Source of the DNA: Streptomyces cadmiisoli
Lineage (GTDB): Bacteria; Actinomycetota; Actinomycetes; Streptomycetales; Streptomycetaceae
Assembly (NCBI RefSeq): GCF_003261055.1
Contig: NZ_CP030073.1
Location: 248,001-312,000 of the forward strand
Direction: 5' to 3'
Length of the DNA: 64,000 bases
Part shown: one piece after another, positions 13,720 through 57,817 of the stretch
Layout: every line of letters begins with the position of its first letter
Numbering within the stretch: position 1 is the stretch's first letter
The notes under the pieces: generated by a model
Told to the model about the DNA's origin: nothing
The model's database searches: none
The model's input: only the letters and a program-made list of their open reading frames with translations
Made by a program: the position numbers and the translations under genes

Positions 13720-13929
13720 GCGTCAGCCGATCACAAGGGAAGCGGCAGACTGCTCCTGGCCGCTGCGGGCCGACACGAGAGCCGTCGCCGCGATGACGGC
13801 CGGCACGGATGAATACCTACGGGAAGAACGCAGCACGAAGTGATTCCTCGGTTCGTCGGAACAGCACGGCGCAGCACCACCACGCCTCAAGGCGACCCGG
13901 TTTATACAGGGCCCGCGACGACCGTTGCC

Positions 13930-30599: not shown

Positions 30600-31015
30600 C
30601 CTAGTTCTCCGGCTCCGGGCTGACAACCGGGCCGGCGGCGCGCGGACACCGTCGTTCCCCGCCCCGCTGCGACCGGAACCACGTCCCGCGCCGGTTCGCA
30701 TGGCGCCGGCGCCCACCAACATCAAGCCGCGGAAGCGAATCGCCCCTGGCACAAGGTCACCGCCGCCGGCAAGCTGCAGGTGCCGATCAATCACCCGGCC
30801 AGGTCACGCCGAGATCGGCGACCCCCGGTAGGACCGCCGAAGGTCCCGCTGTCATCACGTGGACAGGGACGGGCGGCATCACTACTGCTTGACCTTGACT
30901 CACCGGGGCCTTCTACAGGAGTCCCGGTGAAGAGTGCCCCGGCAAGCGCCGCCCGGCAGCCCTCTGACACCCCAACAGAAGCCTGTAGTCACCTATTCAT
31001 CGGAGTGAGATCGCC
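30600..31015. other. Intergenic gap between the sugar and lanthipeptide regions
   Basis: No gene is supported in either strand. The segment marks a change from the very GC-rich sugar genes to the less GC-rich lanthipeptide operon. A partial direct repeat (CTTGACCTTGAC near 30890) is present but without a clear partner. Confidence 0.5.
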
Positions 31016-31999
31016 TCACTGGGCCGCTGCAGAGCCGGCCTGTGGAATGTCCGCCAGCATCGTCTGCAAGTCGTTGAGAGCCACACGGCTGCCGAACTTC
31101 GCTGCGACGCCGGTGACGTTCAGAACGATTTCGTCGGCTCCAGCCTGGCGGAACTGATCAAGCTGATGGGCTAGTTCCTCCCCGGTTCCGAAGAGGAACC
31201 CGCCGCCCTCGATCAGCGCTTCCGCGCCAGCTTCGGGATTGGTCATGTCGATGTCGATCCCGGACAGCCTCAGCATGCCGGCGTAGTTTGGCTGGCGCAG
31301 GTGACCGGCGTTGCTGGCCAGTACCAATTGCGTGGCGACCCGGTCCGGTCCGCTGAGGGCGACGGGAACGATCGCGGTGAGGCGAGGCCGGGGCCGCCCC
31401 GCTGCCGTGGCACCGGCGTCGAGAGCAGGCACGATGACGTCCGCCAGATAGCTCGCCGGTGTCATCCAGGTGATCGCTACGTCGGCGATCTCGCCTGCCA
31501 GCCGTGCCATACCGGGGCGCAATACGCCGAGACCGAGTTCGATCGGCGGTCCGGGAACACGCTTCAGCGTCGCGTCACATGTAAAGTGCTTGCCCTTGTA
31601 CGCGATGCCACCATCGTTGAGCAGTCCGCGGACGATCGTGAGGTAATCCCGTGTGGCGCCCAGTTGGCTGGTGTACTCCTCGCCGAGCAGACGGCGCTGT
31701 ACATCGGCAGTACCGGGTCCGTAGCCCACGACGAGGGGGTGCCCCAGGGTCAGGGAGAGAGTACGGGCTTGAAGGGCGGCGTCGAAGGGGTGACGGAACG
31801 GCATCAGGGTCACCCCGATGCCGGCGGGAACCCGAAATCCGCTGACCGCAGCCGCAGTGAACGTTTGGTGGGGGTCACTCGTCGGTGCCTGGCCCTGCCA
31901 GAGCCGGACAGCGTGGCTCATCTGCGTCAGAGCCGCGAAAGGCAGGATCTGCTCGCTGCGCGGCGGCGCGATCGGTGCGTAGATCGAGAAGGTGGTCAC
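31016..31999 (-). CDS. Luciferase-like (LLM class) flavin-dependent oxidoreductase
   Basis: The 327-residue protein shows the bacterial luciferase/F420-dependent oxidoreductase pattern: GIGVTLMPFRHPFDAALQAR, LTLGHPLVVGYGPGTADVQR, LGEEYTSQLGATRDYLTIVR and EIADVAITWMTPASYLADVI. These enzymes use FMN or F420 for hydride transfer or mono-oxygenation. Start is GTG at 31999 with AAGGAG six bases upstream. It is the last gene of the lanthipeptide operon, 119 bp after the second ABC exporter gene, so it may tailor the peptide (for example reduce dehydro residues), which is inference. The cofactor cannot be told from sequence alone. Confidence 0.85.
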   Translation of the reverse strand: MTTFSIYAPIAPPRSEQILPFAALTQMSHAVRLWQGQAPTSDPHQTFTAAAVSGFRVPAGIGVTLMPFRHPFDAALQARTLSLTLGHPLVVGYGPGTADVQRRLLGEEYTSQLGATRDYLTIVRGLLNDGGIAYKGKHFTCDATLKRVPGPPIELGLGVLRPGMARLAGEIADVAITWMTPASYLADVIVPALDAGATAAGRPRPRLTAIVPVALSGPDRVATQLVLASNAGHLRQPNYAGMLRLSGIDIDMTNPEAGAEALIEGGGFLFGTGEELAHQLDQFRQAGADEIVLNVTGVAAKFGSRVALNDLQTMLADIPQAGSAAAQ

Positions 32000-32118
32000 T
32001 CAGTGCTCCTTGCGTGCATCGCTTCGTGTGGTGCGGTTGATTCCCGTCACTGAAAGGTTCCAGCGAGGAAGCACGCTGGACGGGTGCAGCGTGGCCGCAG
32101 CCTGATGCTTGCCCTCCG

Positions 32119-33864
32119 TCACGGAGTCACCGGTCGGCCCGGCCGTTCCCAGTAGCGGAACAGCTCGGCGTATGGCGGTGAGAGGCTGAGCAGTTCGTCG
32201 TGGCGGGCGTGAGTTGCCCGGCCGTTTTCCATGAAGAGGACTTCGTCGGCCCTGGTCGCGGAGTCGAGCCGGTGTGCGATCACGATGAGCGCGCCGGGAC
32301 GGCTCCGGAAAGCGGCTTCGACCGCCGACTCGGTTGCCGCATCGAGGTTACTGGTCGCCTCATCCATGATCACGGTGTGGGCGTTGCTCACGTATCCCCG
32401 TACTAGGGCGACCAGTTGGCGCTCTCCGGCCGTGGAAGTCGTACGGCTCATCGGCCGGTCGAGTCCCTGGCTTCCGGTGAGGAGAAGGTCGGCGCTGAGT
32501 GTCCGGACTGCATGGACGAGTTCGTCGTCGGAGACGTCGTCTCTCAAATAGCGGAGGTTCTCTCGCAGCGTGCCGCTGAACACGTACGCTTCCTGAGGGA
32601 GCAGCAGGACGCGGTGAGTGATGTCCTCCTGGTCGGCTGCGGTGAGAGGAACTCCGGCCCACGCGACGTGGCCGGAAGTAGGGGTGAGTAGACCAGCGAG
32701 TAGGAACGCCAGGGTGGACTTGCCAGCACCGCTTGGTCCCACGACCGCCAGGTGCGCACCGGGGGCGACAGTCAGGTTCACTCCGCTCACCAGCGGCGCC
32801 GCGTCGTCGTCATGGCGGAAAGTCACATCGACGGCGCGTAGGGTACCCGTCTTGGGCAGGGCAGTACCGGGGGCGTAGGTGCGCGGGTGCGTAGTCCTGT
32901 GCTCCGCGAGTCGACGCAGAGCCGCCGACAGTGGTGCCGCTATGCCGGCCGCCGTGCGGGAGAGGGTCAACAGCGCAGGGATGCATCCGTTGGCTGTGTA
33001 AATCGCCGCGCCTACGAGTGCGCCGGGACTGAGCAGGGAGCTTTCCAGCAGACGCGGTGCTGTGCCAATGAGCAAAACCAAGGGGAGGTATCCGCCGATT
33101 GCAGTGGTTAGACCCCGGGCGATGCCACTGCGTGCGACTTGAGTGGCGAGGATACTGTGTCGGTCTATCGCCTCCCTCACGTCCGCGACGGCACGCTGGG
33201 TGGCGTCCTCGGCAACAATGTCACGGATGGCGTGTAGCACCTGTCCTGTACGGTGACTGATCCTTTCGTTCGCCACCACCATGTTGTGGTGCACCGCCGC
33301 TAGGGGTGCGCTCTGCCAGCGCAGCAGGAGCAGTCCGGCCGCAATGGCGGGGAGCACCAGCGGCAGGGTTGGGGGCGCGGTGCAGGCGACGCCAACGATG
33401 GAAGCCGCCAGAGTGACCGACGCGGTCAAACCGGCGCTCAGAAGCGCGCCGGTCATCCGGCGCACGGACTCCACTTGTGAGGTGAGCGCTGCCGCGGCCT
33501 CGTACCGCGGAGGGCTCCAGCCATTTTCCGTGCTCGTGGCAATCACTGAGACCACGACGTCGCGGGTCAGCCGTTCGCGCAGGGCTTCGGCGAGACGCGA
33601 CTGCGCGCGAACCACGTGCTGTTCAGCGCCCGCCTGGATCAGCAAGGTGACGACCAGCCCGCTCAGCCAGGCGGCTCCTGTCCAGGGAGCGTGCGCGAGG
33701 AAACCGTCGTCCACAGCCCGGGAGATCAGATAGCCAGAGGCAAGCGCGGGCATGGACGTCACCGCCGTCCACAGCAGGAGCGAAATGACGATCCGCCGGT
33801 CTGTGGCGAGGACGCGCATCAGCGGTGACAGGAATCCATGGTCCTGTTGGGAAGAGGCAACCAC
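32119..33864 (-). CDS. ABC exporter half-transporter with intact ATPase site
   Basis: The 581-residue protein has an N-terminal six-helix exporter domain (about 20-320) and a C-terminal nucleotide-binding domain: Walker A GPSGAGKST, Q-loop LLPQEAYVFSG, a variant signature STAGERQL, Walker B HTVIMDEATSNLD with the catalytic Glu, and H-loop IVIAHRLDSAT. It likely pairs with the adjacent half-transporter as a heterodimer exporting the lanthipeptide. The GTG at 33864 has AAGGA five bases upstream and lies eight bases after the stop of the preceding gene. No peptidase C39 domain is present, so leader removal must be done by another protease. Confidence 0.88.
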   Translation of the reverse strand: MVASSQQDHGFLSPLMRVLATDRRIVISLLLWTAVTSMPALASGYLISRAVDDGFLAHAPWTGAAWLSGLVVTLLIQAGAEQHVVRAQSRLAEALRERLTRDVVVSVIATSTENGWSPPRYEAAAALTSQVESVRRMTGALLSAGLTASVTLAASIVGVACTAPPTLPLVLPAIAAGLLLLRWQSAPLAAVHHNMVVANERISHRTGQVLHAIRDIVAEDATQRAVADVREAIDRHSILATQVARSGIARGLTTAIGGYLPLVLLIGTAPRLLESSLLSPGALVGAAIYTANGCIPALLTLSRTAAGIAAPLSAALRRLAEHRTTHPRTYAPGTALPKTGTLRAVDVTFRHDDDAAPLVSGVNLTVAPGAHLAVVGPSGAGKSTLAFLLAGLLTPTSGHVAWAGVPLTAADQEDITHRVLLLPQEAYVFSGTLRENLRYLRDDVSDDELVHAVRTLSADLLLTGSQGLDRPMSRTTSTAGERQLVALVRGYVSNAHTVIMDEATSNLDAATESAVEAAFRSRPGALIVIAHRLDSATRADEVLFMENGRATHARHDELLSLSPPYAELFRYWERPGRPVTP

Positions 33865-33872
33865 GGTTGTCC

Positions 33873-35648
33873 TTAGGTTCGGCTCGTTCGCGGAAGCGAG
33901 GAACTGAAGAGTTCGCGATACGCAGAGTGATTCCACAGCTCAGCGTGAGGTCCGACCGCGCGTACGCGGCCGTTCTCAAGCCAGACAGTCAGGTCCGCTT
34001 GGGCCGCGAGCGGTTCACGATAGGTGATCCATACTCGGACTCGGCCTTCAAGCGCCGATTCCACGCTGGCCACCACCTGTGATTCGGTCACCGCGTCGAG
34101 ACTGGAGACCGCGTCATCCAGCACGGCGACAGGACAATTGTGTATGAGCATGCGTGCCACCCCGAGCCTCTGCAGCTCGCCAGCGGAAAGCTGCACATCA
34201 GCAAGTGGTGTGCGCAGACCCAAAGGAAGGCCGCGCACCAGGGAGGCTGCCCGCGCGTTCTCCAGAGCGCTGTTGATGATTTCCCGTGATGGTACGGTCT
34301 CGCGCCCGTAAGTGAGAGCGTCCCAGAGGGTCTCGCCGACCAGCCGGGGGCGTTCAAAGGCAAAGGCCACGTCGCCGGGGCGGACGGCTCGTCCCCTGCA
34401 GGTCACAATGCCACGTTCGGGGGACAGTACGCCGCCCAGAACGAGCCCCAGCGTGGTCTTGCCCGAGCCGGGACGGCCCACCACCGCCACCGACGAACCG
34501 GCAGGAAAGCTGAGGTCGATCGCTTCGAGGGCGCTACGACTGTCACGCGTCACCCACACGTTGCGCAGGCGCAGTTCGTGCGTCGTGGATGTGGGCTGTG
34601 GTTCTACTGTGCCGATCGTGTCACTGGCTTCGTTCATCTTTAGCAGGTCGGACACGCGGTTTGCGCTACTGAGCGTCTCCGGGATGAAGCCGATACCACC
34701 TAGCTGGGAGAGGTAGGGTACGCCGACAGCCATGAAAGCAACCGCTTCCACGAGCTGTCCTGGCTGGAGTCGGCCTTGCACGACGCCGACGCCCGCGACG
34801 ATCAGTACGGCTACTTCTCCCAGCCCAGTGAGCAGCGTTCTTTGCAGGTTCACGCGGCCGGCGACCTGCCAGGTGGCCTGGCCGGCCGTAGCCAGCGTCG
34901 GGAGTGAGGACAGCACCCGGGCTGTCTCCACCCTCTGCGTACGGCTGACCCAGATGGTTGAGATTCCGGCCGTCGCGTCGGTCAGCGCCGCTGACAGTGC
35001 CGACTGAGCGCGCTGGTAGATGCCGAACTCTGGGTAGGACTTCGTGCTCCCCCGGTGCGACAGCAGCAGCGCCAAAGCCGCTGTGCCACACAGGATCAGC
35101 GCCAGCGGGTAGTACAGAAGCCAGAGCGCCACAATGACGTAAGCTCCGCCCAACGCGGCGATCGCGTAACTGATGAACTCGTATCCCGAGTGGGCGACAA
35201 CCTCAGTGCTTCCGAGCAACCGGGACATTACGTCGCCGGCGGGGTGCTTCTGGTCAACAGCATTCTGTGAGGTGAGCACCCGGCTGATGAGTTTCGTGCG
35301 CAGCCAGACGATGGACTGGGCGGCTGACCGAGCGCGGCAGAAACTGGTCAAGGCTGTCGCGAACGATCTGATGAGAACCAGTACCACGAGCCATGGGAGC
35401 ACCCGCGCGCTATGGTCCGTGAATTCGGCATCGAGGGCAGCGCCGAGGACCGAAGGGAAAAGCAGAGACGAAGCGACGCTCGTCAGCGTTCCCACGACAG
35501 TAAGCACGTTCCATCGCCACGCGTGGGCCAGCACTGACCACGTGAGACTGACGGCGTCATCTCGTTCACCGTGCACGGCTATCCAGCGCAGCAGACGCGC
35601 GCTTCGCCGTCGCGAAAGGGCCGCGGACGCGGAGCCATTCCTCGGCAT
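33873..35648 (-). CDS. ABC exporter half-transporter with degenerate ATPase site
   Basis: The 591-residue protein has exporter membrane helices (about 55-310) and an ATPase domain with Walker A GRPGSGKTT and signature LSAGELQRL. Its Walker B reads VAVLDDAVSSLD, with Asp where the catalytic Glu is usual, and the H-loop position reads WITYREP, with Tyr instead of His. These changes are typical of the non-hydrolysing half of heterodimeric exporters, whose partner here is the gene downstream. It follows the precursor peptide gene after a hairpin. GAGG lies six bases before the ATG at 35648. Confidence 0.87.
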   Translation of the reverse strand: MPRNGSASAALSRRRSARLLRWIAVHGERDDAVSLTWSVLAHAWRWNVLTVVGTLTSVASSLLFPSVLGAALDAEFTDHSARVLPWLVVLVLIRSFATALTSFCRARSAAQSIVWLRTKLISRVLTSQNAVDQKHPAGDVMSRLLGSTEVVAHSGYEFISYAIAALGGAYVIVALWLLYYPLALILCGTAALALLLSHRGSTKSYPEFGIYQRAQSALSAALTDATAGISTIWVSRTQRVETARVLSSLPTLATAGQATWQVAGRVNLQRTLLTGLGEVAVLIVAGVGVVQGRLQPGQLVEAVAFMAVGVPYLSQLGGIGFIPETLSSANRVSDLLKMNEASDTIGTVEPQPTSTTHELRLRNVWVTRDSRSALEAIDLSFPAGSSVAVVGRPGSGKTTLGLVLGGVLSPERGIVTCRGRAVRPGDVAFAFERPRLVGETLWDALTYGRETVPSREIINSALENARAASLVRGLPLGLRTPLADVQLSAGELQRLGVARMLIHNCPVAVLDDAVSSLDAVTESQVVASVESALEGRVRVWITYREPLAAQADLTVWLENGRVRAVGPHAELWNHSAYRELFSSSLPRTSRT

Positions 35649-35694
35649 CGGAAACCTCTACTGTCAAGTGCGCTGTGATAGGTGGAAAATCGCC

Positions 35695-35726
35695 CTGGGG
35701 CCAGGGCCGTCCAGCCCTGGCCCCAG
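35695..35726 (-). terminator. Hairpin between precursor gene and exporter genes
   Basis: Perfect 13-bp inverted repeat (CTGGGGCCAGGGC at 35695-35707 and its complement at 35714-35726) with a 6-base loop, 12 bp past the precursor stop. It probably acts as a partial terminator or stabiliser so that precursor mRNA exceeds exporter mRNA, as is common for lanthipeptide operons. Confidence 0.78.
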
Positions 35727-35737
35727 AGGTTGTTCGA

Positions 35738-35851
35738 TCAGAGAGTCCAGGACCGCGAGCAGCCCATGGACGAGCCGTGCATTTCCAGGTCGCCCGGGGT
35801 CTCCTCGGCAACCAGCTGGTTCAGGGACTCAAAAATCTCATCGGCACTCAT
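35738..35851 (-). CDS. lanA: Lanthipeptide precursor peptide (37 residues)
   Basis: A short minus-strand gene with a strong ribosome site (AAGGAG six bases before the ATG) lies 62 bp after lanKC. The acidic, helical-looking leader contains DEIFESLNQLVAEETPG, where FESLNQLV may play the part of the class III leader recognition helix. The C-terminal part, EMHGSSMGCSRSWTL, has four Ser, one Thr and a single Cys. LanKC would phosphorylate and eliminate Ser/Thr and could close a small ring from Ser27 or Ser28 to Cys31. The common class III pattern Ser-x2-Ser-x(2-5)-Cys is absent, so a labionin is not expected. The leader-core boundary is inferred. Confidence 0.82.
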   Translation of the reverse strand: MSADEIFESLNQLVAEETPGDLEMHGSSMGCSRSWTL

Positions 35852-35887
35852 GTGTATCTCCTTGCTCTCATGTGGTTTCTCATCTAT

Positions 35888-35909
35888 CCGGGCTCACGGA
35901 CGAGCCCGG
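35888..35909 (-). promoter_or_regulatory. Small hairpin between lanKC and the precursor gene
   Basis: CCGGGCTC at 35888-35895 pairs with GAGCCCGG at 35902-35909 around a 6-base loop, just past the lanKC stop. It could be an attenuator or an mRNA-end stabiliser before the precursor reading frame. Confidence 0.6.
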
Positions 35910-35913
35910 AAGT

Positions 35914-38628
35914 TCAAGGGACCTGCGGGGCAAGGCCCGGCTCCGGTGTCATCCACGGAGCAGCAGCGCCATGGTGCGCTCGCAGCAGGAAGGACAGGAC
36001 TCCCGGTACACCAGTGGCGAAGTCCCACTCGACCGCGCGCTTGTCATACAGAGTCAAGCCCTGGCGTCCGGATGTGGCATGGGACGTCAGCAGCGCGGTC
36101 ACCAAGCCGGCCCACCGGCCGGCGGCGGAGGTAGGGCCTTCGTCGCCTGCGATGTCCAGCAGGAAATGTCCGTCGCCGGCCAGCCCCCACCAGGCACCCA
36201 GCGGCGCGCGGGGAGCCGAGTAGCGCACGGCCGCCGCTGCGGCGGCTGCAGTGTCCCGGTACGCAAGCCGGTTGGAATCTGCGCCCAGACTCCACAGGAA
36301 TGCCCCGATTCCCGCCGGGCCACCCCACCATCCGTGCGGCGTTCGTCCGTCGTCCGTCTGATCGCTCCACCACGCGGCCCGGTAGGTCCGTGCTCGACCG
36401 TTTTCCAGGACGTCTACATCCCGCAGCCGTGCCTGAGCGACGAGTTCGTCACCGGCCAACTGGGCCACTTCAGCGAACCGGGGTTCCTGAAGGATCTGGG
36501 CTGCGCTGAGAAGGAACCGGCCTATGCCGGCTGTGCCTGTGGCGATTCCATTGTGGGCTGTGGGAGTGTTCTGCTCGGCCATCCACCGCACCCCGACGGA
36601 GCCTTTTCGGACGGCTGTGTCCACCAGGTGTTCCGCGCACTCCAGTGCCTTCTGCCGGAACTCCCACCGGCCTGTGGTACGCCAGAGGTGCAGCATTGTG
36701 GCGCCTGTCCCGGCGATCCCGTGCGCCACTGTGGGTATATGCCAACGAGTCGGCAGCTGCTCGGCGATCTCCAGAGCATGGTCGAGGGTGACCGAGTCGC
36801 CGACGGCCTGTGCCACGTCGGCTGCGGCCCAGATCATACCGGCGTGGCCGTTGTACAAGCCTGGCAGCAGCGTGACGGTGGGCCGGCCGAGATTCCTGTC
36901 CCACCAGCGGCTCAAGGTGACCAACGCATCCTGGAGCACGTCGTCCAAGTCACGGTCGCCACCATTGATCACCGCCGGACAGCGCGCCGCCTGAAGCAGC
37001 ACACCTGTCACACCAGCAGCGCCAGCCTGAACGAATCGAGGGTCTAGCCTACGCATCGTTCCCAGTGTTGGTACCAGCGCAGCGGCTTGTGGTCGCAGGG
37101 CAGAGATCATGTTCAGCAACGACTCACGGATGAGCTGATCGGGGTCAGGCTCCGCAGGGGTGCCGGCTGTACTCATGGAAGGGTGCACGCGAGCGGCTGC
37201 GTGTAGTTCCCGTTCGGCGCGCGACCAGGTCCAGCGGTCTTCGGGCGCGAACGCCATCAAGCCGTGTACCAGAGGATTCAGGGCGTGTATCAACGGGTTG
37301 TCCGCAGCCATGACATCCATGGGCGAAGACGTCTTGGAGCCAGTGTCCAACCCGCTTGGGCGAGTAACCGGACGCCGCTGCAGGCACAGAGCGGCGATCA
37401 GGGCCCCCGCGCCGTAGCGGTCCATCTCGGGCGTTGCGAGCAGGACGTCGTCCCGCTCAGACTCAAGCTTTTCCGGGGCGGCATACCCGGGAGTTCTCAG
37501 CTTGGGGATGGGCGCGCCAACCTCTGCGGCGCTCTCCAGGTCCAGCAGTTGAAGTCGGCCGTCGGGGCCCATCAGGAAGTTGCCCGGCGACAAGTCGCCC
37601 ACAACGATGCCGGCATCGTGCACAGCTTGGAGGGTCTTCACGATCTGGCGTGCCAGGTTCAGGACGATTGCGTCCGACGGTGGCGGCGCGTCGTCCTCAT
37701 CGGGTGTGACCAGGTCCTGCAGAGGCCGTCCAGCGAGTTCCTCCTCGACGAGGAATGTCTGGTCCGCGAGGTCGAACAGGTCCACCAGTTCGGGGACAAC
37801 TGCCACATCCGCCAACCTGCGGAGCATCGCCGCTTCCCCGCGTAGAAGGTCCCGTGCGTCCGCACCATCACTCGATGGATCAATCCCTGCGCGACTCTGC
37901 TTGATAACGACCCTGCGGTCGGTCTTGGTATCCAGCGCCCGGAACACGCCTCCGCGATTGGTGTGCCGAATTGCGCCTGTGACCTGGTAACGGTCGGCTA
38001 GTAGCAGCGACTTGCTCTTCTTCGTGGACCCTGCGTCCGCCGCCGGCTGCTCGACCGGGTCGCTGAGCCATGAGGGCGGGCTGAACCAGGCAACGCGCCG
38101 GTCCTCCACCAGGGAGCCGTCCGGGGAGACGATCATCTCCTCAACCGCACCCTTGTCGTCCAGTCGGGTCATCTGCGAGATGCCGCCATAGCGATAATGG
38201 ACGATCCCGCCTTGGTACTGGCGGTCGGACATGATCCGTGGCCCCCAGTGGTCCGTCAGTGGTGTGTGCAGCTTGTCTAGAAGATCGCGGAACTGACCGT
38301 CGTCATTCGGGTAGACAGTGATGAACTTCCCGCTCGCTGCCGGATCGCTCCCACGTGATAGCGAGTCGTGCAGAAGATCCGGCGTACCAACAAACTTGAA
38401 AGCGACGCCCAGGGGCACAAGCACGGAGCTGACCTTGCCCAGGATGTCCGCCGCGGTGTCGGGCGTAGCGGACACGTGAATCTTCCAGCCTTGCAGGCGG
38501 TGGCGGTGTCGAGATGGCTCTACGAAATGCCAGTAATCGGTCTCTCGGATGCGCCAATAGGAATCTGGATGGGTGTTCAGAACGTCAAGCACAACTTTCT
38601 TGAACATCACTTGACGAACACCCTTCAT
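35914..38628 (-). CDS. lanKC: Class III lanthionine synthetase LanKC
   Basis: The protein of about 904 residues has the LanKC order. An N-terminal lyase domain (about 1-215; SYWRIRETDYWHFVEPS, GWKIHVSATPDTAADILGKV) is followed by a Ser/Thr kinase-like domain (about 230-490) with RVVIKQSRAG, DAGIVVGDLSPGNFLM and LLDLESAAEVG. A LanC-like cyclase barrel follows (about 530-900; GLYNGHAGMIWAAADVA, VAHGIAGTGATML, PHGWWGGPAGIGAFLW). The Cys-Cys-His zinc ligands of LanC and class IV LanL are not seen, which fits class III. It would phosphorylate, eliminate and cyclise the nearby precursor. The ATG at 38628 is chosen; an ATG 24 bases downstream is possible. Confidence 0.9.
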   Translation of the reverse strand: MKGVRQVMFKKVVLDVLNTHPDSYWRIRETDYWHFVEPSRHRHRLQGWKIHVSATPDTAADILGKVSSVLVPLGVAFKFVGTPDLLHDSLSRGSDPAASGKFITVYPNDDGQFRDLLDKLHTPLTDHWGPRIMSDRQYQGGIVHYRYGGISQMTRLDDKGAVEEMIVSPDGSLVEDRRVAWFSPPSWLSDPVEQPAADAGSTKKSKSLLLADRYQVTGAIRHTNRGGVFRALDTKTDRRVVIKQSRAGIDPSSDGADARDLLRGEAAMLRRLADVAVVPELVDLFDLADQTFLVEEELAGRPLQDLVTPDEDDAPPPSDAIVLNLARQIVKTLQAVHDAGIVVGDLSPGNFLMGPDGRLQLLDLESAAEVGAPIPKLRTPGYAAPEKLESERDDVLLATPEMDRYGAGALIAALCLQRRPVTRPSGLDTGSKTSSPMDVMAADNPLIHALNPLVHGLMAFAPEDRWTWSRAERELHAAARVHPSMSTAGTPAEPDPDQLIRESLLNMISALRPQAAALVPTLGTMRRLDPRFVQAGAAGVTGVLLQAARCPAVINGGDRDLDDVLQDALVTLSRWWDRNLGRPTVTLLPGLYNGHAGMIWAAADVAQAVGDSVTLDHALEIAEQLPTRWHIPTVAHGIAGTGATMLHLWRTTGRWEFRQKALECAEHLVDTAVRKGSVGVRWMAEQNTPTAHNGIATGTAGIGRFLLSAAQILQEPRFAEVAQLAGDELVAQARLRDVDVLENGRARTYRAAWWSDQTDDGRTPHGWWGGPAGIGAFLWSLGADSNRLAYRDTAAAAAAAVRYSAPRAPLGAWWGLAGDGHFLLDIAGDEGPTSAAGRWAGLVTALLTSHATSGRQGLTLYDKRAVEWDFATGVPGVLSFLLRAHHGAAAPWMTPEPGLAPQVP

Positions 38629-38862
38629 GATTTTGCGCGTTGCTCTCGTGAAGTCCACGGCAACAAATCTTCGTGAAGTCGGAGAGCAGCTACCGACATC
38701 AACGAGCAAGGAAATCGCATTGCCTCCGAACGGATTCGGAATGTAGCAGCGGATCGCAACCGATGCGAGTTGACATTGACCCGCGAAGCGAGCGCCCTAC
38801 ACCAATTCTTCACCTTTTGTTTACAAGGCAGCAAACCCTTGTCCCGCCGGCTCGGCTAAAGA

Positions 38863-38903
38863 AAATATGCGACATATTTCCAGGGATGGAAGAAGTGTCG
38901 CAT
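38863..38903. promoter_or_regulatory. AT-rich control region upstream of lanKC with nested palindromes
   Basis: The roughly 300 bp before lanKC is markedly AT-richer than the rest of the window. It holds AAATATGcgaCATATTT (38863-38879) and an 8-bp inverted pair ATGCGACA (38867-38874) / TGTCGCAT (38896-38903). This is a candidate operator for the lanthipeptide operon; no regulator gene is adjacent. Confidence 0.45.
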
Positions 38904-39149
38904 CCCGCTATTCTGCCGTATGGCAATTGAATGCCACTATTGAATTTAAGCGCCAAAAATCAGTGTGATGCACGTCACCGATCTTCGCGCCCCTCCGGCC
39001 TGTGCGGGCGTGGCCTGGGAGGTCCGTCGACGGCTCGAGGTCGCGCTGGAGGAGCAATTCGTCGCAGGGTCCGCAGATGAGCAGCTTGATCGCATGCCGC
39101 AGCACAGAGGTCGGACGCCAGGCGCGCTACAGCGTCGCGCAGCTGCAGA

Positions 39150-39480
39150 AACCTCATCGACGAACGGCTCGTGCGCTTCCACCACCGCCCCCACGAAGGG
39201 CTGCGCCACCCGGTACCGCCGAAGATCACGCCATCCCCGAACCGGATGTGGGCGGCCCTGGTCGCCGTCACCGGATACGTATCGGTCTCGCTGAGCGGCA
39301 GTGACTACCTGGAGTTGCCGCCGGTGCGGTGACAAGCCATCACCAAACGCCGCATCCGCCAGCGCCACCACACCTACGGCCAAGACCTGTTCGGCCCCTG
39401 ACGGGGCCAGACATCAGGCGTCGCACCCCTCGGCGGGAAGTGGGGAGTCCACACCAACCCACCGAGCAGGTCCCAACCTC
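39150..39480 (+). pseudogene. Degenerate Mu-type integrase/transposase C-terminal fragment
   Basis: One plus-strand frame reads NLIDERLVRFHHRPHEGLRH ... SPNRMWAALVAVTGYVSVSL ... SDYLELPPVR, then a TGA, then QAITKRRIRQRHHTYGQDLF, a second TGA, then GVAPLGGKWGVHTNPP. I recognise this series as the C-terminal Mu-transposase beta-barrel region of actinobacterial rve-type transposases (ITxRGIRxxxxTY, GGKWxVHxNP). The two in-frame TGA codons and the missing catalytic core show that it is dead. Confidence 0.6.
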
Positions 39481-40246
39481 AGAAGAACACCGCGGCAGCG
39501 ACGAGGAGTGCAGCGGTGAAGATGCGGTCAAACACGGTGCCGACCGGCTACCGGCGCAGGCCACGCCGTTCAATCCGGCACCGCGATGTAGGGACTCCAA
39601 TACACGGCCAGGGCTGCATCGGCGAGTGACCGATTGCGGCGTGCTTCGGTTGAAGCATCGGCACGAGCGCGGCAACGCGTCGAGGTGGCTGTTGTTCGTG
39701 TGGGAGCGACGGCGGCGGACGTGCCGGTGCTGTTCCCCTGGGTTCCAGATCCTGTCTGCACGCTGGCATCTGCCCGGTGCTAGAGCGCGGCGGCCCGGCC
39801 AGCGCTCGACAGCAAACACCGCCGCCCGATCCCGCGAAGCGCGCCCACCCCGCCCCTTTCCCTTGCCTCTTCCTGCCTGAGGCGGGGTTGCGGGGGCGTG
39901 CAGAGAGACATGTCCGGCTGCTTACCCCGCCCGAAGGACGTGATCACCTGCGAGTAGGCCGTCAGGAGCCCCGCAGGCGCGGACAGTTGTCGGCGGGGAT
40001 ACCGGTGGGGTCTTCAGCGGGGATACCGGCGTGGTCCCATCGTGATGCTGGTCGGCCCTTCATGGTCGACGGTCTGGTCGGGGCCAGCTGATGACGTGGC
40101 CAGTACACGCGGGGCCGGGCAGAGCAACGCCGCACCGTACGGCGAGAGCGTCGACAGATGCAGAGCGTGGATGCGGGTGGTGGGGACCGGCTGGCGCTGG
40201 CGGTGCTGGCGCAGTACCCGATGGCGACCACCCAGCAGATGCACCA
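39481..40246. other. Gene-poor transition between the two biosynthetic regions
   Basis: Frames here give Arg/Pro-rich or otherwise non-protein-like translations with no recognised domains. No hairpin or repeat of note was seen. It appears to be eroded insertion-element DNA, judging from the transposase remnants on both sides. Confidence 0.45.
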
Positions 40247-40458
40247 CGCTCTGCGCGTCGATCAAGGAGGCTGACGGCTTCACGCTTCGGCCCTCCCTTT
40301 GCCGCACCTGTTCCCGCAGCAGACCCGTTGGGCTCGGCGAAGGCGACCTCCTTCTGCCACTTCGCGAAGTAGTCATAGACGGCTTCCCACAGCGGGAAGT
40401 CGTGCGGCAGGTAACGCCGCAGCACACAGGTGCGGTCCGCGTACAAGATCGCGTTCAT
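40247..40458 (-). pseudogene. IS5-family transposase N-terminal fragment, frameshifted
   Basis: The minus strand reads MNAILYADRTCVLRRYLPHD, FPLWEAVYDYFAKWQKEVAF, which is the typical N-terminal segment of IS5-type transposases (NAILY-x-RTG-x2-WR-x-LP-x-DFP-x-W-x2-VY). After about 40325 the continuation LLREQVRQREGRSVKPSASL, IDAQSV is in another frame. The DDE catalytic core that should follow is missing. Dead remnant. Confidence 0.65.
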
Positions 40459-41009
40459 GATCTAACGCAACTCGTGCTCGCGCGGCCGGCCAAAGCCCAG
40501 AGCCCGCCCGCGGCATTGGAAGTGCCACGTCGTCGGAGCTTGCTCGTTCAAATCCAGCGAACATCGGACAGATCCGTCGGATACGCACGACGAGTGTCAC
40601 GCTGCTCGTGAACGGCCCGTCCGTGACTCGCGATGCCTCACCTGCACTGTGGTGTCCCGGCCGCAGACCACTGCCCGCAGGCCCCACCAGCCGTCACGAC
40701 TGCCTGACCGACGACGGACCACACCGGATCGCCTTGTCTCCGGGTGGCGCAGCGCCCGTGCCGGCTGAGGACTTCTGGCGACGCCATGTCCCGGGCGGTT
40801 GACCCCACTTGTGCCGCGCGCCCCCGGCGCCGCACCTCAACGTGCGGCCGTCCGCGTGTGGACGGTCTCCGTCTCCCTTTGCGTCACGCCTCGTTCACTT
40901 CCCGCGCTGACGATCCGACTGGCGAAACCGGCGTTACGGCAGTGACTCATTAGTGCTTCAGGGTCACGCCGTGACTGTCGTCGAGCTCAAGTGGACCAAG
41001 TCGGTTGGT
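40459..41009. other. Intergenic stretch before the NRPS/PKS cluster
   Basis: No supported gene. It leads into the 9-bp repeat at 41010 and probably carries the promoter of the first cluster gene, but I cannot point to clear hexamers. Confidence 0.4.
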
Positions 41010-41050
41010 GGACCAGGTGGTCCGCTTGGTCCGAGTGGACCAAGCGGACC
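41010..41050. repeat. Nine-base GGWCC repeat with perfect hairpin
   Basis: GGACC or GGTCC recurs exactly every nine bases at 41010, 41019, 41028, 41037 and 41046, with another GGACC at 40993. The last four copies form a perfect 14-bp inverted repeat (GGTCCGCTTGGTCC at 41019-41032, loop GAGT, complement at 41037-41050). Read as protein it gives Gly-x-Pro triplets (GGPGGPLGPSGPSGP) inside a short open frame without a convincing start. It may be an operator array, a hairpin or a minisatellite; it lies 145 bp before the first NRPS/PKS gene. Confidence 0.7.
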
Positions 41051-41194
41051 GAGTGATGGGCGGAAGATGTACGCAGGCTGTCCGTGTCCGGGGCGGCGGA
41101 AGGACGCGCGCGGCGGCATGTGCCCCGCTCTGTCCAGGATTTCTCTGCCCTTCTTGCTTCCTCCGCGCCAATCCTGCTCCGGGGTGAGCGAGAA

Positions 41195-42943
41195 ATGACC
41201 GATGTCGAAGAGACCGACGAGGACATGCAGAGCGCCGTGGCTGTCATCGGCATGGCTGCCCGGGTGCCCGGCGTCGCGGACCTCGACGAGTTCTGGGGCG
41301 CGCTCGTGTCTGGCCGCGATCTGACGACTCGTCTCGAAGGCGGTGCCGCGTACGGAGTGGTCGCCGGCACGGAGCGGTTCGACGCGGCGTTCTTCGGCTT
41401 CGGGCCGCAGGATGCACAACTGCTCGACCCGCAGGACCGGGTGTTCCTCGAATGCGCCCGGGAGGCGCTCGAGGACGCGGGTCAAAATCCCCGGACGTAC
41501 CCGGGAGCCGTCGGTGTGTACGCGGGGAGTGGCGAGTCGGAACACCTCGCCGTGCTGCGCGCACAACGCCACCGGTTTCCGGAGGCGACCGACGAGCAGC
41601 TCCGCCTCGCAGGCAGCCGGGACTTCCTCACCGGCCGGGTGGCGTACGCGCTGAACCTGCAGGGCCCGGCGGTCACCGTGCACACCGGCTGCTCGACCTC
41701 CCTGGTGGCGGTTCACCTGGCCTGTCAGGCGCTGCTCGCCGGCGACTGCGACCTGGCCCTGGCCGGTGGAGTCACGGTCCGCGGCGCCGCGGGTGCCGGT
41801 GAGGGCGACGACCTGCTTTCGGCGGACGGCCGCTGCCGACCCTTCGACGCGGACGCCGACGGCATGGTCGCCGCCGACGGCGCGGGGATCGTGGTGCTGA
41901 AGCGGTTCTCCGACGCGCTCGCCGACGGGGACCAGGTCGAGGCCGTGATCCGGGGTTCGGCGCTCAGCAACGACGGGTCGGGCAAGGTGAGTTTCACCGC
42001 GCCGAGCGTGACCGGACAAGTGGCCGCGATCCGTTCGGCGCACGTCGTCGCCGACGTGTGCCCGGATTCGATCGGGTATGTCGAGGCGCACGGCACCGGC
42101 ACCCTGATCGGCGACGCCATGGAGGTCCGTGCTCTGTCGGAGGCGTTCGGGCAGCCGGGGCCGTCGCGGCGGTGCGTGCTCAGCTCCGTCAAGTCGAACA
42201 TCGGCCACACCGACACGGCGGCGGGAGTGATCGGCCTCATCAAGGTGGTCCTCGCCCTGCGGCACGGCCTGATACCGGGCACGGCGCATTTCCGCAGTCC
42301 GAGTCCGCACCTCGACCTCGAGGCCAGCGGATTCGTGGTGACGCGTGATGCGACACCCTGGCCGCCGGGTCACGGTCCTCGCCGTGCCGGGGTCAACGCG
42401 ACGGGCATCGGGGGGACCAACGCCCACCTCCTGGTCGAGGAGGCGCCGACTCCGGACGGGGCCGCGGACGAGGATCGCGATCACCTTCCGGCGCGGGCGG
42501 CGCGTACCGCTCCCGCAGGCGTGGACGCCGCGGTGTGGCACGGCGACCGGACCGGTGAGGAGCGCGACAGCGCGGCGCCTGCGGCAGAGCAGGATGCGGG
42601 CGGGGGCGAATCCGGCCCGGCTACATCGGTGCGGGACGCAGATGAGTCCGAATCCCAGGCGCCTGCGGCCGTGCGGGATGCGAGCGCGGCGGCGGCCGAG
42701 GCGCGTACCCCGGCGGAAAAGGTGATCGCCGGGGTGTGGAGTGACGTACTCGGCGTGGCCGACGTCGGCATGGACGACGACTTCTTCGAGCTCGGCGGCC
42801 ACTCCCTGCACGCGACGCGGGTCCTGGCCCGGCTGGGTCCGGCGCTCGGCAGCCAGGCACGGCGGCTCACCGTCCTGGACATCTTCGACCACCCCACCGT
42901 CCGCGAGCTCGCCGCGCTGGTGAGTGCGTCCGGCCCGCGGTGA
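41195..42943 (+). CDS. Ketosynthase-carrier didomain protein
   Basis: The 582-residue protein has an N-terminal modular-type ketosynthase (about 10-430) with Cys in VHTGCSTSLVAVH (about 167), His in VEAHGTGT and Lys/His in KSNIGHTDTAAG, so the catalytic set is complete. A linker of about 70 residues rich in Ala, Glu and Asp leads to a carrier domain with the phosphopantetheine Ser in DDDFFELGGHSLHA (about residue 536). That motif is of the peptidyl-carrier type, not the PKS-ACP type. There is no AT, so the extender must come from a separate enzyme. It is the first gene of the plus-strand cluster. The ATG at 41195 is the first plausible start with the KS at the N-terminus. Confidence 0.88.
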   Translation: MTDVEETDEDMQSAVAVIGMAARVPGVADLDEFWGALVSGRDLTTRLEGGAAYGVVAGTERFDAAFFGFGPQDAQLLDPQDRVFLECAREALEDAGQNPRTYPGAVGVYAGSGESEHLAVLRAQRHRFPEATDEQLRLAGSRDFLTGRVAYALNLQGPAVTVHTGCSTSLVAVHLACQALLAGDCDLALAGGVTVRGAAGAGEGDDLLSADGRCRPFDADADGMVAADGAGIVVLKRFSDALADGDQVEAVIRGSALSNDGSGKVSFTAPSVTGQVAAIRSAHVVADVCPDSIGYVEAHGTGTLIGDAMEVRALSEAFGQPGPSRRCVLSSVKSNIGHTDTAAGVIGLIKVVLALRHGLIPGTAHFRSPSPHLDLEASGFVVTRDATPWPPGHGPRRAGVNATGIGGTNAHLLVEEAPTPDGAADEDRDHLPARAARTAPAGVDAAVWHGDRTGEERDSAAPAAEQDAGGGESGPATSVRDADESESQAPAAVRDASAAAAEARTPAEKVIAGVWSDVLGVADVGMDDDFFELGGHSLHATRVLARLGPALGSQARRLTVLDIFDHPTVRELAALVSASGPR

Positions 42944-43150
42944 AGTCGCGGGCCCATGAATGGCGCCGCGGTCGCATGGGCCACGTGGATCCTACCGACC
43001 GCATCGCCCGTTCCGGCAAATCGCCTGTACCGGTGACATCCCCCGTACTGGCGGCATCGCCGGTACCGGCCGCGCACCCCGACCGTCAGCCGCGCGGCCC
43101 GTGGAACGCGTGGCCTGTTGCACCGTCACACGATTTCTGGAGGACGACCT

Positions 43151-46100
43151 GTGAGTGACCTGACCGAGCTGCCCGGGACACCGACGACGATCCCCGTCCG
43201 GCCCGACGGGGAACCCGTGATGTCGTTCGCGCAGGAACGTCTCTGGTTCATGGACGCGTACGCCCCCGGGACGACGGCGTACACCATCCCGGAAGCCTGG
43301 CGGCTGCGCGGTGCGGCGGTCGATCCGGACGCGCTGACAGCGGCGTTGAACCGGGTCGCGGAACGGCACGAGCCGCTGCGGACCCGCTTCCCCGCCACGG
43401 TGGACGGGCGGGCCGTCATGGTCGTCGACGACGCCGGCGCGATCCCGTTGACCACCGCGGAGGCCGTCGACGACGACGCCGTGGGTGTCCTCGTCGACGC
43501 CTTCATGGCCGAACCCTTCGACCTGGCGACCGGCCCCGTGGCCCGCGCGCTGCTCATCACCGTCGGCCCCGAGGAGCAGGTGTTCGCGCTCGCGGTGCAC
43601 CACATCGCGGCCGACGGCTGGTCCACCGAACTCCTTCTCGGTGAGGTGCTGACCTGCCTGGCCGGCCTCCCGCTGCCCGAACTGCCGGTTCGTTACGGCG
43701 ACTTCGCGGCGTGGCAGCGTGCCCAGTCCGACTCCGGTCAGGATGTGGCGTACTGGGGGGAGCAGCTGGCCGGCGTGGCGCCGCTCGAGCTGCCCACCGA
43801 CCGGCAGCGGCCACCGCTGCCGACGTACGCCGGTGCCGCGCACGAGTTCTCGGTGGCGCCGGACGTGCTCGACGCGTTGCTCCGGCTCGGGCGCCGGTAC
43901 CGGGCCACGCCGTACATGGTTCTGCTCGCGGCCTTCGCGGTCCTGCTGGGCCGCCGGGCCGGGCAGGACGACATCACGATCGGGTCGCCGACGGCCGGCC
44001 GGCCCGTTCCTGAGCTCGACGACCTCGTGGGCTGCTTCGTCAACATGGTCACCATGCGGGTCGACGCGTCGGGCGACCCGACGTTCGTCGAACTGCTGCA
44101 GCGGGTCCGCAGCACGGCCGCGCACGCCTTCGCCCACCAGGAACTGCCCTTCGAGCGCCTGGTCACGGAACTGAACGTGCCGCGGGAGGTGTCGCGTTCG
44201 CCGCTGTTCCAGGTCGTCTTCTCCCTGCAGAGCTACGAATCGGACCTGCCGAGCCATCCGTCGTTCACCGTCACCGCCGACGTCCCGATGTCCTACCGGG
44301 TGACCCGCTTCGATCTCGAACTGCACACCGCGGGTGACGGCACCTTCCTGTTCGTCTACAACACGGCGCTGTTCACCGCGGACTCGGTCGCGGCGATGAG
44401 CGCCCACCTGCGGGTGCTGCTGGAGGGCATCGCCGCCGACCCGGACGCCGCGATCTCGAGCTACGAGCTGCTCACGGCCGAAGAGCGTGAGCAGCGCGCC
44501 CGCTGGAACGACACCGGTGCCGATCTCGGCCCCGACCTGTGCCTGCACGAGCCGGTGGAGGCACAGGCGGGCAGGACGCCGGACCACCCGGCCGTGATCT
44601 ATCCCGGCGGTCAGCTGTCGCACGCCGAGGTCGATCGGAGGGCCGGTCATCTCGCGGCGCGCCTGACGGCCGCCGGCGTGAGGCGGGGCGACCTGGTGGC
44701 CGTCGCGATGCGGCGGGGGTGGGAGCAGGTCGTCGCGGTCCTGGCTGTCAACAAGGCCGGCGCCGCCTACCTGCCCGTCGACGCCGACCTGCCCGACAGC
44801 CGTCGCGGCGAGCTCATCGCACGCGGTGACTGCACCGTGGTTCTCACCCAGCCGGCCCTGGCTGCGCGGCTGACCTGGCCGGACGGGCTGACGGTACTGC
44901 CGGTCACCGGGGAAGCGGCCTCGCTGTCCGGGGTGAGCGAGGAGCCCGGCGGCGGGTCGGTGGCGCTGTCCGGGGTGAGGGAGGAAGCGAGTGCTGCGGT
45001 GCTGCTCGGTTCCGCGGAGCCCGACGACCTCGCGTACGTCATCTTCACCTCGGGGTCGACCGGCACGCCGAAGGGCGTGATGATCGAGCACCGGGCCGCC
45101 CTCAACACCGTCCGCGACATCAACGAGCGCTTCGCCGTGGGCCCCGACGACCGGGTGCTCGCGCTGTCCGCGCTGAGCTTCGACCTGTCGGTCTACGACG
45201 TCTACGGCACGCTGGCCGCCGGTGCCGCTCTGGTCATGGGGCAGCCCGCAGAGGACAAGGACCCGGCCGCCTGGGCGCGGATCGTCACCGAGCAGCGGAT
45301 CACCGTGTGGAACTCGGTGCCCGCGCTCATGGAGCTCCTGGTCGAGCACGCGGAGCAGGAAGGGACGGACATCAGCTCGTTGCGGCTGGTGATGATGTCC
45401 GGCGACTGGATCCCGCCGACGCTCCCCGACCGGATCCGCGCGCTCGCACCGCATGCGGAGATCATCAGCCTGGGCGGAGCCACCGAGGGGTCGATCTGGT
45501 CCATCTCGTATCCGATCGAGCGCGTCAGCCCGGAGTGGTCCTCGATCCCGTACGGCCGCCCGCTGACCAACCAGCGGTTCCATGTTCTCGATCGCGGACT
45601 GTGTGACGTCCCGGTCGGTGTGCCCGGCGAGCTGTGCATCGGGGGCACCGGGGTGGCTACCGGGTACTGGAAGGACCCGGAGCGGACCGCGGCGGCGTTC
45701 GTCACGCACCCGCGCACCGGCGAGCGTCTCTACCGGACCGGCGACCTGGGGCGCTATCGGTCGGACGGTGTCATCGAGTTCCTCGGGCGGGCCGACGCCC
45801 AGGTCAAGGTCCGCGGCTACCGGATCGAACTCGGCGAGATCGAGGCACACCTGGCCCGCCATCCCGCGGTGGCCGAATGCGTGGTGACCGTGCACGGGTC
45901 CGGCAACGCCGCGCAGCTCGTCGCGTACGTCATCGCCGAATCCATGACCGGGACCGAAACCGCGACCGGAACCGGGACAGAAGCGAGGACCAGCACCGCT
46001 GCCCCACTCGACCCCCGCCCGGGACCCGGTCCCGACCCCGCCCTGCTGCGGTCGCACCTCGCGGCGGCGCTGCCGGCCTACATGGTGCCCAGCTCGTTCG

Positions 46101-48685: not shown

Positions 48686-49069
48686 TGCGCCGGGAATTCC
48701 GGGCACGCGCTTCGAAAGGGCTCGAATCAAATGTGCCGCCTCCGCAATTGTGGCCGCCGTTCACCTTGCGGGCCTCCCTGGTTCAGGCCGAGTTGCCTTC
48801 CGAACCGTGGGGTGAGGTTACACATGTGCGTCACTGAGTTTCCGTGCGCCAAGCACAGGGACGGCGAGTGACGCGACGCCTACATGTGAATTCTGTGGCG
48901 GTTCCTTCCGGCGACGCATCGTGTCGCCCACCTTCCGCGAGCTCCTTTTCGTCATGCCTATCGGGTATTTCGTGAAGTGAATCGGGCAGTCGTGTGCTTT
49001 CAGTCGGGTGTGTTCCCTTCACACGACGTGCCCGCGACAAGTGTCAAACGTCAAGAGAGGAAATGTACG
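48686..49069. other. Intergenic gap, likely promoter region for the SET/NRPS pair
   Basis: No gene is supported. The stretch is less GC-rich than its flanks and contains the palindrome ACACATGTG and a second CATGTG nearby. It probably carries the promoter for the SET-domain and second NRPS genes, since these two overlap. Confidence 0.45.
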
Positions 49070-49642
49070 TTGCAAGAGCGGGATTCTTACGTCGATGCGG
49101 GCGCGGTGCGCGGCGGCCTGGGAGACGAGGTGCACGCCAACGGGGTCCGGATCGTCATGGATCGCGACAAGGGGCGCTGCGTGGTCTCGGCCAGGCGATT
49201 CGCACCGGGAGAGACCGTGGTCGCGGGCGATGTCGAGAGGGCCGTACCGATCCGGACGAACCATTCGTTCCAGGTCGGATGGGACACGCATGTCGATCTG
49301 ACGACGCCGGCCCGGGACATCAACCACTCCTGCGAGCCGAACACCGGAATCCGGGACAACGACCGGGGCGGGTTCGACTTCGTCGCGCTTCGCGAGATCT
49401 TCCCGTCGGAAGAGATCACCTGGGACTACGAGACGAGCGAGTACGTGAGCATCGCCGTGTCCCGGTGCCTGTGCGGCGAGAACCGGTGCCGGTCGGCGAT
49501 ACGTGGGTTCAAGTACCGCCAGGAAGACGAGACGTGGCAGCCCACGCACCTGGCCGGCTACCTCCGTGAGGAGTACGACGCCGTGAGCACGGCCCGCGAG
49601 GCGTCGGGCGCCGGGCGCCATCCAGTCGCCCGGGAGGTCTGA
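49070..49642 (+). CDS. SET-domain protein
   Basis: The 190-residue protein has SET-domain lysine methyltransferase signatures: GRCVVSARRFAPGETVV at the start, the pseudoknot motif ARDINHSCEPNTGI (about 80), the catalytic-type EEITWDYET and a post-SET Cys cluster CLCGENRCRS. Such proteins bind S-adenosylmethionine and usually methylate Lys in proteins. In this cluster it might act on a carrier protein or on a carrier-bound substrate; that is inference. The TTG at 49070 has GAGGAA seven bases upstream; upstream in-frame codons lack a site. Its stop overlaps the ATG of the next NRPS gene. Confidence 0.85.
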   Translation: MQERDSYVDAGAVRGGLGDEVHANGVRIVMDRDKGRCVVSARRFAPGETVVAGDVERAVPIRTNHSFQVGWDTHVDLTTPARDINHSCEPNTGIRDNDRGGFDFVALREIFPSEEITWDYETSEYVSIAVSRCLCGENRCRSAIRGFKYRQEDETWQPTHLAGYLREEYDAVSTAREASGAGRHPVAREV

Positions 49643-53166: not shown

Positions 53167-53210
53167 CGCTCCCGGGTGGATGAGGCGGAGAGCCCTCTGA
53201 GGAAGGTCCA

Positions 53211-53241
53211 CGCCCGCCGCACGCACGAGACGTGGCGGGCG
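53211..53241. terminator. Hairpin between convergent NRPS and MFS genes
   Basis: CGCCCGCC(GC)ACG pairs with CGTGGCGGGCG (53231-53241) with a two-base bulge, 44 bp past the NRPS stop and in the gap between convergent genes; it may serve both strands. Confidence 0.55.
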
Positions 53242-53321
53242 CGGACCGAGCTGACGGGGGTCTGCGCCGCCACCCCGCTGCCCCCGACGCCTCCGCCAGG
53301 GACGCCCCCGCCAGGTGGACG

Positions 53322-54641: not shown

Positions 54642-54673
54642 GCCGGGTGCCGCTCGACGATGGTCTGGGGCAT
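54638..54673 (-). CDS. 11-codon upstream frame coupled to MFS gene
   Basis: ATG at 54673, preceded by AAGGA at good spacing, encodes MPQTIVERHPA and ends in an ATGA overlap with the MFS start. The MFS start itself has a weaker site, so ribosomes may reach it by re-initiation. It may be a leader peptide, a translation-coupling device or the end of a lost gene. Confidence 0.45.
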   Translation of the reverse strand: MPQTIVERHPA

Positions 54674-57459: not shown

Positions 57460-57464
57460 TATTC

Positions 57465-57734: not shown

Positions 57735-57746
57735 GCGCCGGTACGA

Positions 57747-57817
57747 CCACGGCTCACCACCCTGCTCCGCCGAGTGAACCCCCGCACGTCCACGGTTCAC
57801 CGCCCTGCTCCGCCGAG
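57747..57817. repeat. Imperfect direct repeat after the ACP gene
   Basis: Two 28-bp copies (57747-57774 and 57790-57817) differ at two positions, with a 43-bp period, filling the gap before the aminotransferase gene. They probably arose by local duplication; no function is evident. Confidence 0.75.

Follow-up and report, generated by a model that had tools for sequence, protein, structure and literature searches.

A probable one-Cys lanthipeptide-type precursor gene beside a synthetase that looks derived from class IV and has no zinc ligands, in Streptomyces cadmiisoli

We will start with the genes found around a short peptide gene in Streptomyces cadmiisoli. They lie in the window, by which we mean the whole stretch of 64,000 nucleotides that was analysed, and they follow each other on the same strand: the synthetase gene (38628–35914), the peptide gene, a hairpin, two ABC transporter genes (35648–33873 and 33936–32119) and an oxidoreductase gene (31999–31016). 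The features are the following:

35914..38628, minus strand: trifunctional synthetase (lyase, kinase and LanC-like cyclase), apparently of class IV LanL type without zinc ligands; from Pfam, NCBIfam and an AlphaFold2 model
36325..36327, minus strand: codon of Trp768, which stands where zinc enzymes have their first ligand Cys (NisC Cys284); from the 120 best of 404 hits, aligned
36187..36192, minus strand: codons of Trp813-Trp814, which stand where zinc enzymes have the ligand pair Cys-His (NisC Cys330-His331); from the same 120 best of 404 hits, aligned
35738..35851, minus strand: very probable precursor gene (lanA-like), 37 aa; from its translation, its Shine-Dalgarno AAGGAG and its place after lanL
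35693..35728, minus strand: GC-rich hairpin in the interval between the precursor gene and the exporter genes; from the RNA fold of an 81-nt stretch (-38.6 kcal/mol, z -3.86)
33873..35648, minus strand: ABC exporter half-transporter 1 (membrane domain and ATPase), 591 aa; from Pfam
32119..33936, minus strand: ABC exporter half-transporter 2, up to 605 aa; from Pfam ABC_tran
31016..31999, minus strand: luciferase-like F420-type oxidoreductase, possible LanJC (dehydroalanine reductase); from PF00296

The ORF at 35738–35851 is translated as MSADEIFESLNQLVAEETPGDLEMHGSSMGCSRSWTL. Its ATG is preceded by AAGGAG with a spacing of 6 nt. The gene starts 62 nt after the stop codon of the synthetase and ends 89 nt before the next ORF. 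A preliminary description of this DNA had pointed out a 37-residue ORF with a strong AAGGAG site next to the synthetase gene, and we find it as described. The core region corresponds approximately to residues 24–37, and the C-terminus is HGSSMGCSRSWTL. The tail contains four Ser and one Thr (Ser27, Ser28, Ser32, Ser34 and Thr36) together with a single Cys (Cys31), with the same composition and numbering as had been proposed. The labionin spacing, S-x2-S-x(2-5)-C, was said to be absent from the peptide, and it is: three residues before Ser27 and Ser28 we find Met24 and His25.

A closed ATG ORF of at least 35 aa with a strong Shine-Dalgarno site appears in 83 of 5000 dinucleotide shuffles of the 265-nt gap. 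When the Shine-Dalgarno site is not required, the number rises to 1830 of 5000. The hairpin starts at the tenth nucleotide 3' of the peptide stop codon and has 16 inner pairs; its fold energy is equalled by one of 200 shuffles. It is likely to be a partial terminator or an RNA stabiliser. The ribosome site, the position, the hairpin and the tail with Ser and Cys make it very probable that the 37-aa gene is a lanthipeptide-type precursor gene, as the preliminary description had claimed. A better precursor nearby had been named there as a ground for giving up this claim. Among the ORFs of 20–100 aa with a Shine-Dalgarno-like site at 30700–43200, judged by eye, no other looks like a precursor.

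The sequence of the peptide appears to be isolated. Out of 150 genomes of the genus only its own was matched, and a looser search in 21 relatives gave two more matches at chance level (E 0.3 and 0.8). None of the NCBIfam models, including NF038157 (ALQxL), matched the peptide. When its leader was compared with a profile of class IV leaders, built with no held-out positive control, 934 of 2000 shuffles scored equally high. The SLNQL stretch was considered as a degenerate ALQxL motif and rejected: the pattern was defined post hoc and is found in 2.7% of shuffles. Since the leader profile gave no support either, we do not count this stretch as evidence.

The synthetase has 904 aa, as the public protein P0005, and carries a lyase, a kinase and a cyclase in a single chain (Pfam domains RamC_N, Pkinase and LANC_like). 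In NCBIfam it passes the class IV LanL model with 721.5 bits (cut-off 650) and fails the class III LanKC model with 450.9 bits (cut-off 575); the Pfam and NCBIfam scans used the longer ORF which starts at 38709. With these scores, and with the best trees described below, the enzyme goes with class IV, and the class III LanKC of the preliminary description is not supported. Its four nearest relatives are found on both sides of the LanL cut-off, two above (702.5 and 699.2) and two just below (638.2 and 648.2); none of the four passes the LanKC cut-off. The AlphaFold2 model has a mean pLDDT of 91.4. Its best fold match in the PDB is CuvL (8cav), which we take to be class IV, with a TM-score by query of 0.76; the listed ThurKC chains have 0.58–0.67. 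A search with the whole protein matched 73 of 392 genomes of the genus at 1e-60, none with more than 40% identity among the matches listed, except its own.

A peculiarity of this enzyme is that all three places of the zinc ligands are occupied by Trp. We aligned the best 120 of 404 database hits, a set to which the window protein belongs. The first ligand column has Cys in 114 proteins, Trp in five and a gap in one; the second has Cys in 114 and the third has His in 113. The three intact nearest relatives, which are 49–51% identical to the window enzyme, have Trp, Phe and Trp at these places. In the fourth relative, P0009, the first place is again Trp, and the C-terminus after it is garbled. 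The flanks of the site are kept: APLGACHG in the zinc LanL P0010 corresponds to APLGAWWG or APLGAFWG in the zinc-free group. An aromatic residue at the second place is also found in 63 of 73 zinc-free class III-like rows (one of the 63, L095, is garbled).

A DNA pattern for HGWW was found in none of 70 Kitasatospora genomes and in one of 391 genomes of the order, which is the genome studied here. The contig scan gave at least 79 loci; among the 79 kept, the zinc-free group is represented by L036 alone. LanL enzymes are described in a passage of PMC2843593 as retaining the conserved zinc site. According to a passage of PMC10604976, NisC Cys284, Cys330 and His331 correspond to Ser, Phe and Asp in ThurKC. 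The titles and abstract openings of the literature on LanL and zinc or on class IV lanthipeptides, a sample mostly outside subscription journals, contain no description of a LanL without zinc ligands. Some variation at this site is seen elsewhere. Trp813-Trp814 are aligned with CC of the solved CuvL, which has these two Cys at the second and third ligand places. The LanL-type proteins P0094 and L114 have Cys-Cys-Cys instead of Cys-Cys-His.

The origin of the zinc-free group was studied with several trees. In a FastTree of 226 rows a branch with support 1.0 sets the 72 class III-like zinc-free rows apart, and the five members of the group are nested among 149 zinc-type rows. This tree does not contain P0108, which is partial, two duplicates (the window and ALI-1.44 enzymes), and L102 and L095, which have garbled ends. 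The ligand columns were removed for IQ-TREE, which we ran on two selections of 40 and 59 rows: both the group and an enclosing clade with P0010–P0013 and P0015 have SH-aLRT 100. The enclosing clade has 10 rows in FastTree (support 1.0), 10 rows in one IQ-TREE subset and 9 rows in the other, the 59-row tree, where P0009 was left out because its C-terminus looks frameshifted. The grouping is unchanged in a tree of the cyclase domain alone. With p 0.153 and 0.255, AU tests did not reject a tree in which the group is joined to the class III-like rows.

The cyclase domain of the window enzyme is 39–42% identical to that of three zinc LanLs, against 21–28% for three class III-like rows. His636, which by its motif should be the equivalent of NisC His212, is kept in all five members of the group and in 144 of 147 zinc rows; the 73 class III-like rows, a count which includes the garbled L095, mostly have Gly, Ser or Tyr instead. 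The identity of the cyclase domain, His636 and the flanks of the lost site, as compared with P0010, all favour a nesting inside class IV. Since the best trees place the group within the zinc LanLs, the loss of zinc looks independent of class III, and from these sequence comparisons we consider this highly probable.

Is the cyclase domain still working? The residues K49, H51, K78, K243, D345, N350 and D363, presumably the active-site residues of lyase and kinase, are kept in the five members of the group and in all 147 zinc-type rows. Between the window enzyme and its three intact relatives the cyclase domain is 54–58% identical, and the lyase and kinase part 52–54%. Faster drift would be expected of a domain without use; since the cyclase shows none within the group, it should have a job there. 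When the comparison is made with zinc LanLs the values are 39–42% for the cyclase domain and 44–48% for lyase and kinase: the cyclase has diverged more, and its job may have changed. The third ligand place of the window enzyme is a Trp, which gives no base like the Asp proposed for ThurKC.

Some zinc-free cyclase domains are already known. In ThurKC, changes in the zinc-free pocket also impair dehydration, and Phe770, which is found at the second ligand place, is important for ring formation (passages of PMC10604976). In CcaM the zinc-free cyclase domain is required for dehydration and the product has no lanthionine ring (passage of PMC10676384). The aromatic residue at the second place, shared with class III-like rows, and the role of ThurKC Phe770 favour some cyclization. 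By analogy with these enzymes the domain may be a metal-free ring closer or a binding partner for dehydration; both fit.

We will now compare the precursor genes found beside other synthetases. Of 34 zinc LanL loci, 26 have a recognisable gene for a leader-like peptide, 25 of them downstream and one upstream only; in the other eight none was recognised. There are 25 distinct peptides, many of which are closely related, and 24 of them carry two to five Cys after the leader motif. At L039 (Streptomyces roseoverticillatus), a zinc-type class IV locus, there is a single-Cys precursor candidate downstream of lanL, which ends in NNVCLITLSDGGPITI. One-Cys precursors are therefore not confined to the zinc-free group.

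The zinc-free relative L036 belongs to Actinosynnema sp. ALI-1.44. Its best precursor candidate (L036:6177-6323) is a Cys-less peptide of 48 aa with a strong ribosome site. It is found 3.7 kb before lanL, at the head of a run with two M16-type peptidase genes, lanL and a P450 gene. The whole region at 6382–13733 contains two genes without Pfam match, the two M16-type peptidase genes, lanL, the P450 gene and a divergent ABC pair. The two genes which separate the candidate from the M16-type genes are those for which Pfam gave no match. A likeness between the leaders of the window peptide and the L036 candidate was tried and discarded, as it was equally good in 1300 of 5000 shuffles. A hairpin after this candidate was not retained either: it has z -1.28 and 26 of 200 shuffles fold as well. 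Fewer Cys may be paired with the loss of zinc in two loci, which is no more than suggestive.

The two transporter genes have matches in 66 and 72 loci (the window's own sequence accounts for three of the 66); ABC proteins are common. For half-transporter 1 the best matches beyond the window's own sequence are 32–38% identical, and for half-transporter 2 the best matches in other synthetase loci are 35–39% identical. The start of half-transporter 2 is uncertain because its ORF overlaps the previous gene. The synthetase gene is followed directly by both transporters in L069, L079 and L084, three class III-like loci, as we confirmed from their coordinates.

The predicted oxidoreductase has its best NCBIfam match in TIGR03564 (F420_MSMEG_4879), with 121 bits, below the cut-off of 234.25. 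A sequence search in the PDB gave no match at 1e-10. Relatives with 43–53% identity are found in four other synthetase loci (L021, L096, L098 and L101); another one in L086 is weak, with 29%. In L021 a zinc lanL and its precursor immediately precede the relative, and in L096, L098 and L101 it is 6–9 kb from the synthetase. A passage of PMC8068269 states that LxmJ reduces Dha28 of lexapeptide to D-Ala and that LxmJ and Cao12 carry the F420 MSMEG_4879 domain. By analogy, a D-Ala step carried out by the predicted oxidoreductase is plausible.

From the genes, their order, their domain types, the residue losses and the conservation just described we infer the following chemistry. The 37-aa gene would encode the precursor of a lanthipeptide-like modified peptide, and the synthetase would have class IV LanL enzymes as its ancestors. 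With its kinase and lyase domains it would phosphorylate Ser27, Ser28, Ser32, Ser34 and Thr36 and eliminate the phosphate, giving Dha and Dhb. The cyclase domain has lost zinc and kept its constraint, so that it should be working, most likely both by holding the substrate for dehydration and by promoting, without metal, the closure of at most one ring, between Cys31 and Dha28, Dha27 or Dha34. Part of the Dha may afterwards be reduced to D-Ala by the F420-type oxidoreductase, and export of the product would fall to the ABC pair. This product is likely to have several dehydrated Ser and Thr, perhaps partly as D-Ala, and at most one thioether ring. The frame as such, a precursor with a zinc-free LanL-derived synthetase and dehydration, is in our opinion probable. 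The preliminary description had proposed a single small ring as a new scaffold for class III. A single ring may exist, but class III is the wrong frame, judging by the class IV score and the best trees; and since the zinc ligands are lost in a class IV-type enzyme, the ring is possible and not assured.

The frame overlaps with another explanation which shares it and which we hold tentatively as a possibility. The synthetase could be a dehydratase only, with a cyclase domain that binds and a Cys that stays free or reacts by itself; the product would be a linear dehydrated (or D-Ala) peptide and not a lanthipeptide. This would agree with the loss of all three zinc ligands. Cys31 stands three residues past Ser28, which is an ordinary ring spacing, and this argues for a ring, as does the pocket of the cyclase domain: it keeps in all five enzymes the His636 which is absent from class III-like rows. 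The Cys-less peptide of L036 would also suit a pure dehydratase, but it is distant from its lanL, its leader likeness is at the level of shuffles and its hairpin is not significant. There are precedents: as mentioned above, CcaM dehydrates with the help of a zinc-free cyclase domain and gives a ring-free product (passage of PMC10676384), and zinc-ligand mutants of lacticin 481 synthetase dehydrate with impaired cyclization, according to a title cited in PMC2843593.

The other two explanations depart from the reading of a precursor with a zinc-free LanL-derived synthetase. It is improbable that the short ORF is no gene at all, or encodes something other than the substrate, with the real precursor elsewhere. 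No homologue appeared in the 150 genomes of the genus or in the synthetase loci, a comparable ORF arises in 83 of 5000 gap shuffles and the class IV leader profile is not matched; yet the position, ribosome site, hairpin and Ser/Cys-bearing tail coincide, and there is no better ORF among those at 30700–43200. That the synthetase is a true class III LanKC, acting on a precursor of this class with an unusual core, we consider very improbable. We rejected membership of class III on the LanKC score (450.9, under 575, while the LanL score of 721.5 is over 650), on the best trees, which nest the group in class IV within a clade supported by FastTree 1.0 and SH-aLRT 100, and on the identity of the cyclase domain (39–42% to zinc LanLs against 21–28% to class III-like rows), even if the AU tests do not reject the class III-like grouping. 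The absence of zinc ligands and the order synthetase-ABC-ABC, as in L069, L079 and L084, are features of class III, but in His636 and around the lost site the enzyme agrees with zinc LanLs such as P0010, and the peptide lacks the labionin spacing.

When compared with known systems, the window enzyme resembles class IV LanL (VenL, SgbL and CuvL) in its domain order, its LanL score over the cut-off, its place in the trees, the sequence of its cyclase, His636 and the fold of CuvL. It differs from them by the absence of all three zinc ligands and by a precursor with one Cys, compared with two to five in 24 of 25 zinc LanL peptides. With class III LanKC (RamC, CurKC and ThurKC) it shares the lack of zinc ligands, the aromatic residue at the second ligand place and the two ABC half-transporter genes after the synthetase. 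It differs by a score under the LanKC cut-off, a cyclase only 21–28% identical, the conserved His636 and a peptide without labionin spacing, although this spacing is not required of every class III member.

A third likeness is found with the LanMbC of dehydrazoles, CcaM, which also has a zinc-free cyclase domain fused to a dehydratase and a ring-free product (passage of PMC10676384). However, CcaM has a dehydratase of class II type (DUF4135) and acts on azole-bearing peptides. None of the 17 window ORFs scanned with Pfam matched YcaO. The window oxidoreductase falls in the F420 MSMEG_4879 domain family, like the LanJC reductases LxmJ and Cao12, and it has PF00296 in common with the Streptomyces rimosus enzyme for which the name LanJC was proposed. 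It differs from them by a score below the cut-off of this family.

From its sequence, the locus appears to combine a zinc-free synthetase derived from class IV with a precursor that has a single Cys, and its chemistry can easily be tested. The chances are about even that we are dealing with a separate lineage of synthetases. Such enzymes would have arisen from zinc class IV, lost zinc independently of class III and replaced the ligands by a cluster of Trp and Phe; they would act on Cys-poor precursors, with a single metal-free ring or dehydration only, and in the window cluster D-Ala would be formed by a LanJC-type reductase. Secondary modification was unreported for class IV as of 2020, in a passage of PMC7268733. 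Another published zinc-free case, LanMbC of CcaM type, is described in a passage of PMC10676384 as carrying a class III cyclase domain. If our reading is true, the zinc-free class IV-derived group would be an exception, beside the CcaM-type LanMbC, and a further natural experiment on the working, or the purpose, of a LanC-like cyclase that has no metal. According to a passage of PMC7268733, ORFs lacking Cys in the estimated core were discarded. Mining by Cys-bearing precursors, or assigning the class by zinc ligands, may then misfile such clusters.

Finally we will consider the surroundings of the cluster. Its large genes have a GC content of 0.64–0.66, compared with 0.715–0.724 in the flanking LacI and NRPS-type genes, which would suit an acquisition of the cluster from elsewhere. 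On one side we find a LacI-type regulator and a solute-binding protein, and on the other side NRPS/PKS-type genes. The latter are divergent from the peptide cluster and adjoin it at 41084–59226; those scanned include ketoacyl synthases (one with a carrier domain), a condensation-adenylation-carrier module and a class III aminotransferase. The region upstream of lanL (38700–41000) has no clear genes and holds, at 40060–40458, what may be left of an IS4/5 transposase (DUF4096, with 32.6 bits slightly under the cut-off of 34.3). Such a remnant is in keeping with an insertion of the cluster. A second LanC-like domain is present in the same genome, far from the window (G000:C1:1769959-1770969, locus L001).
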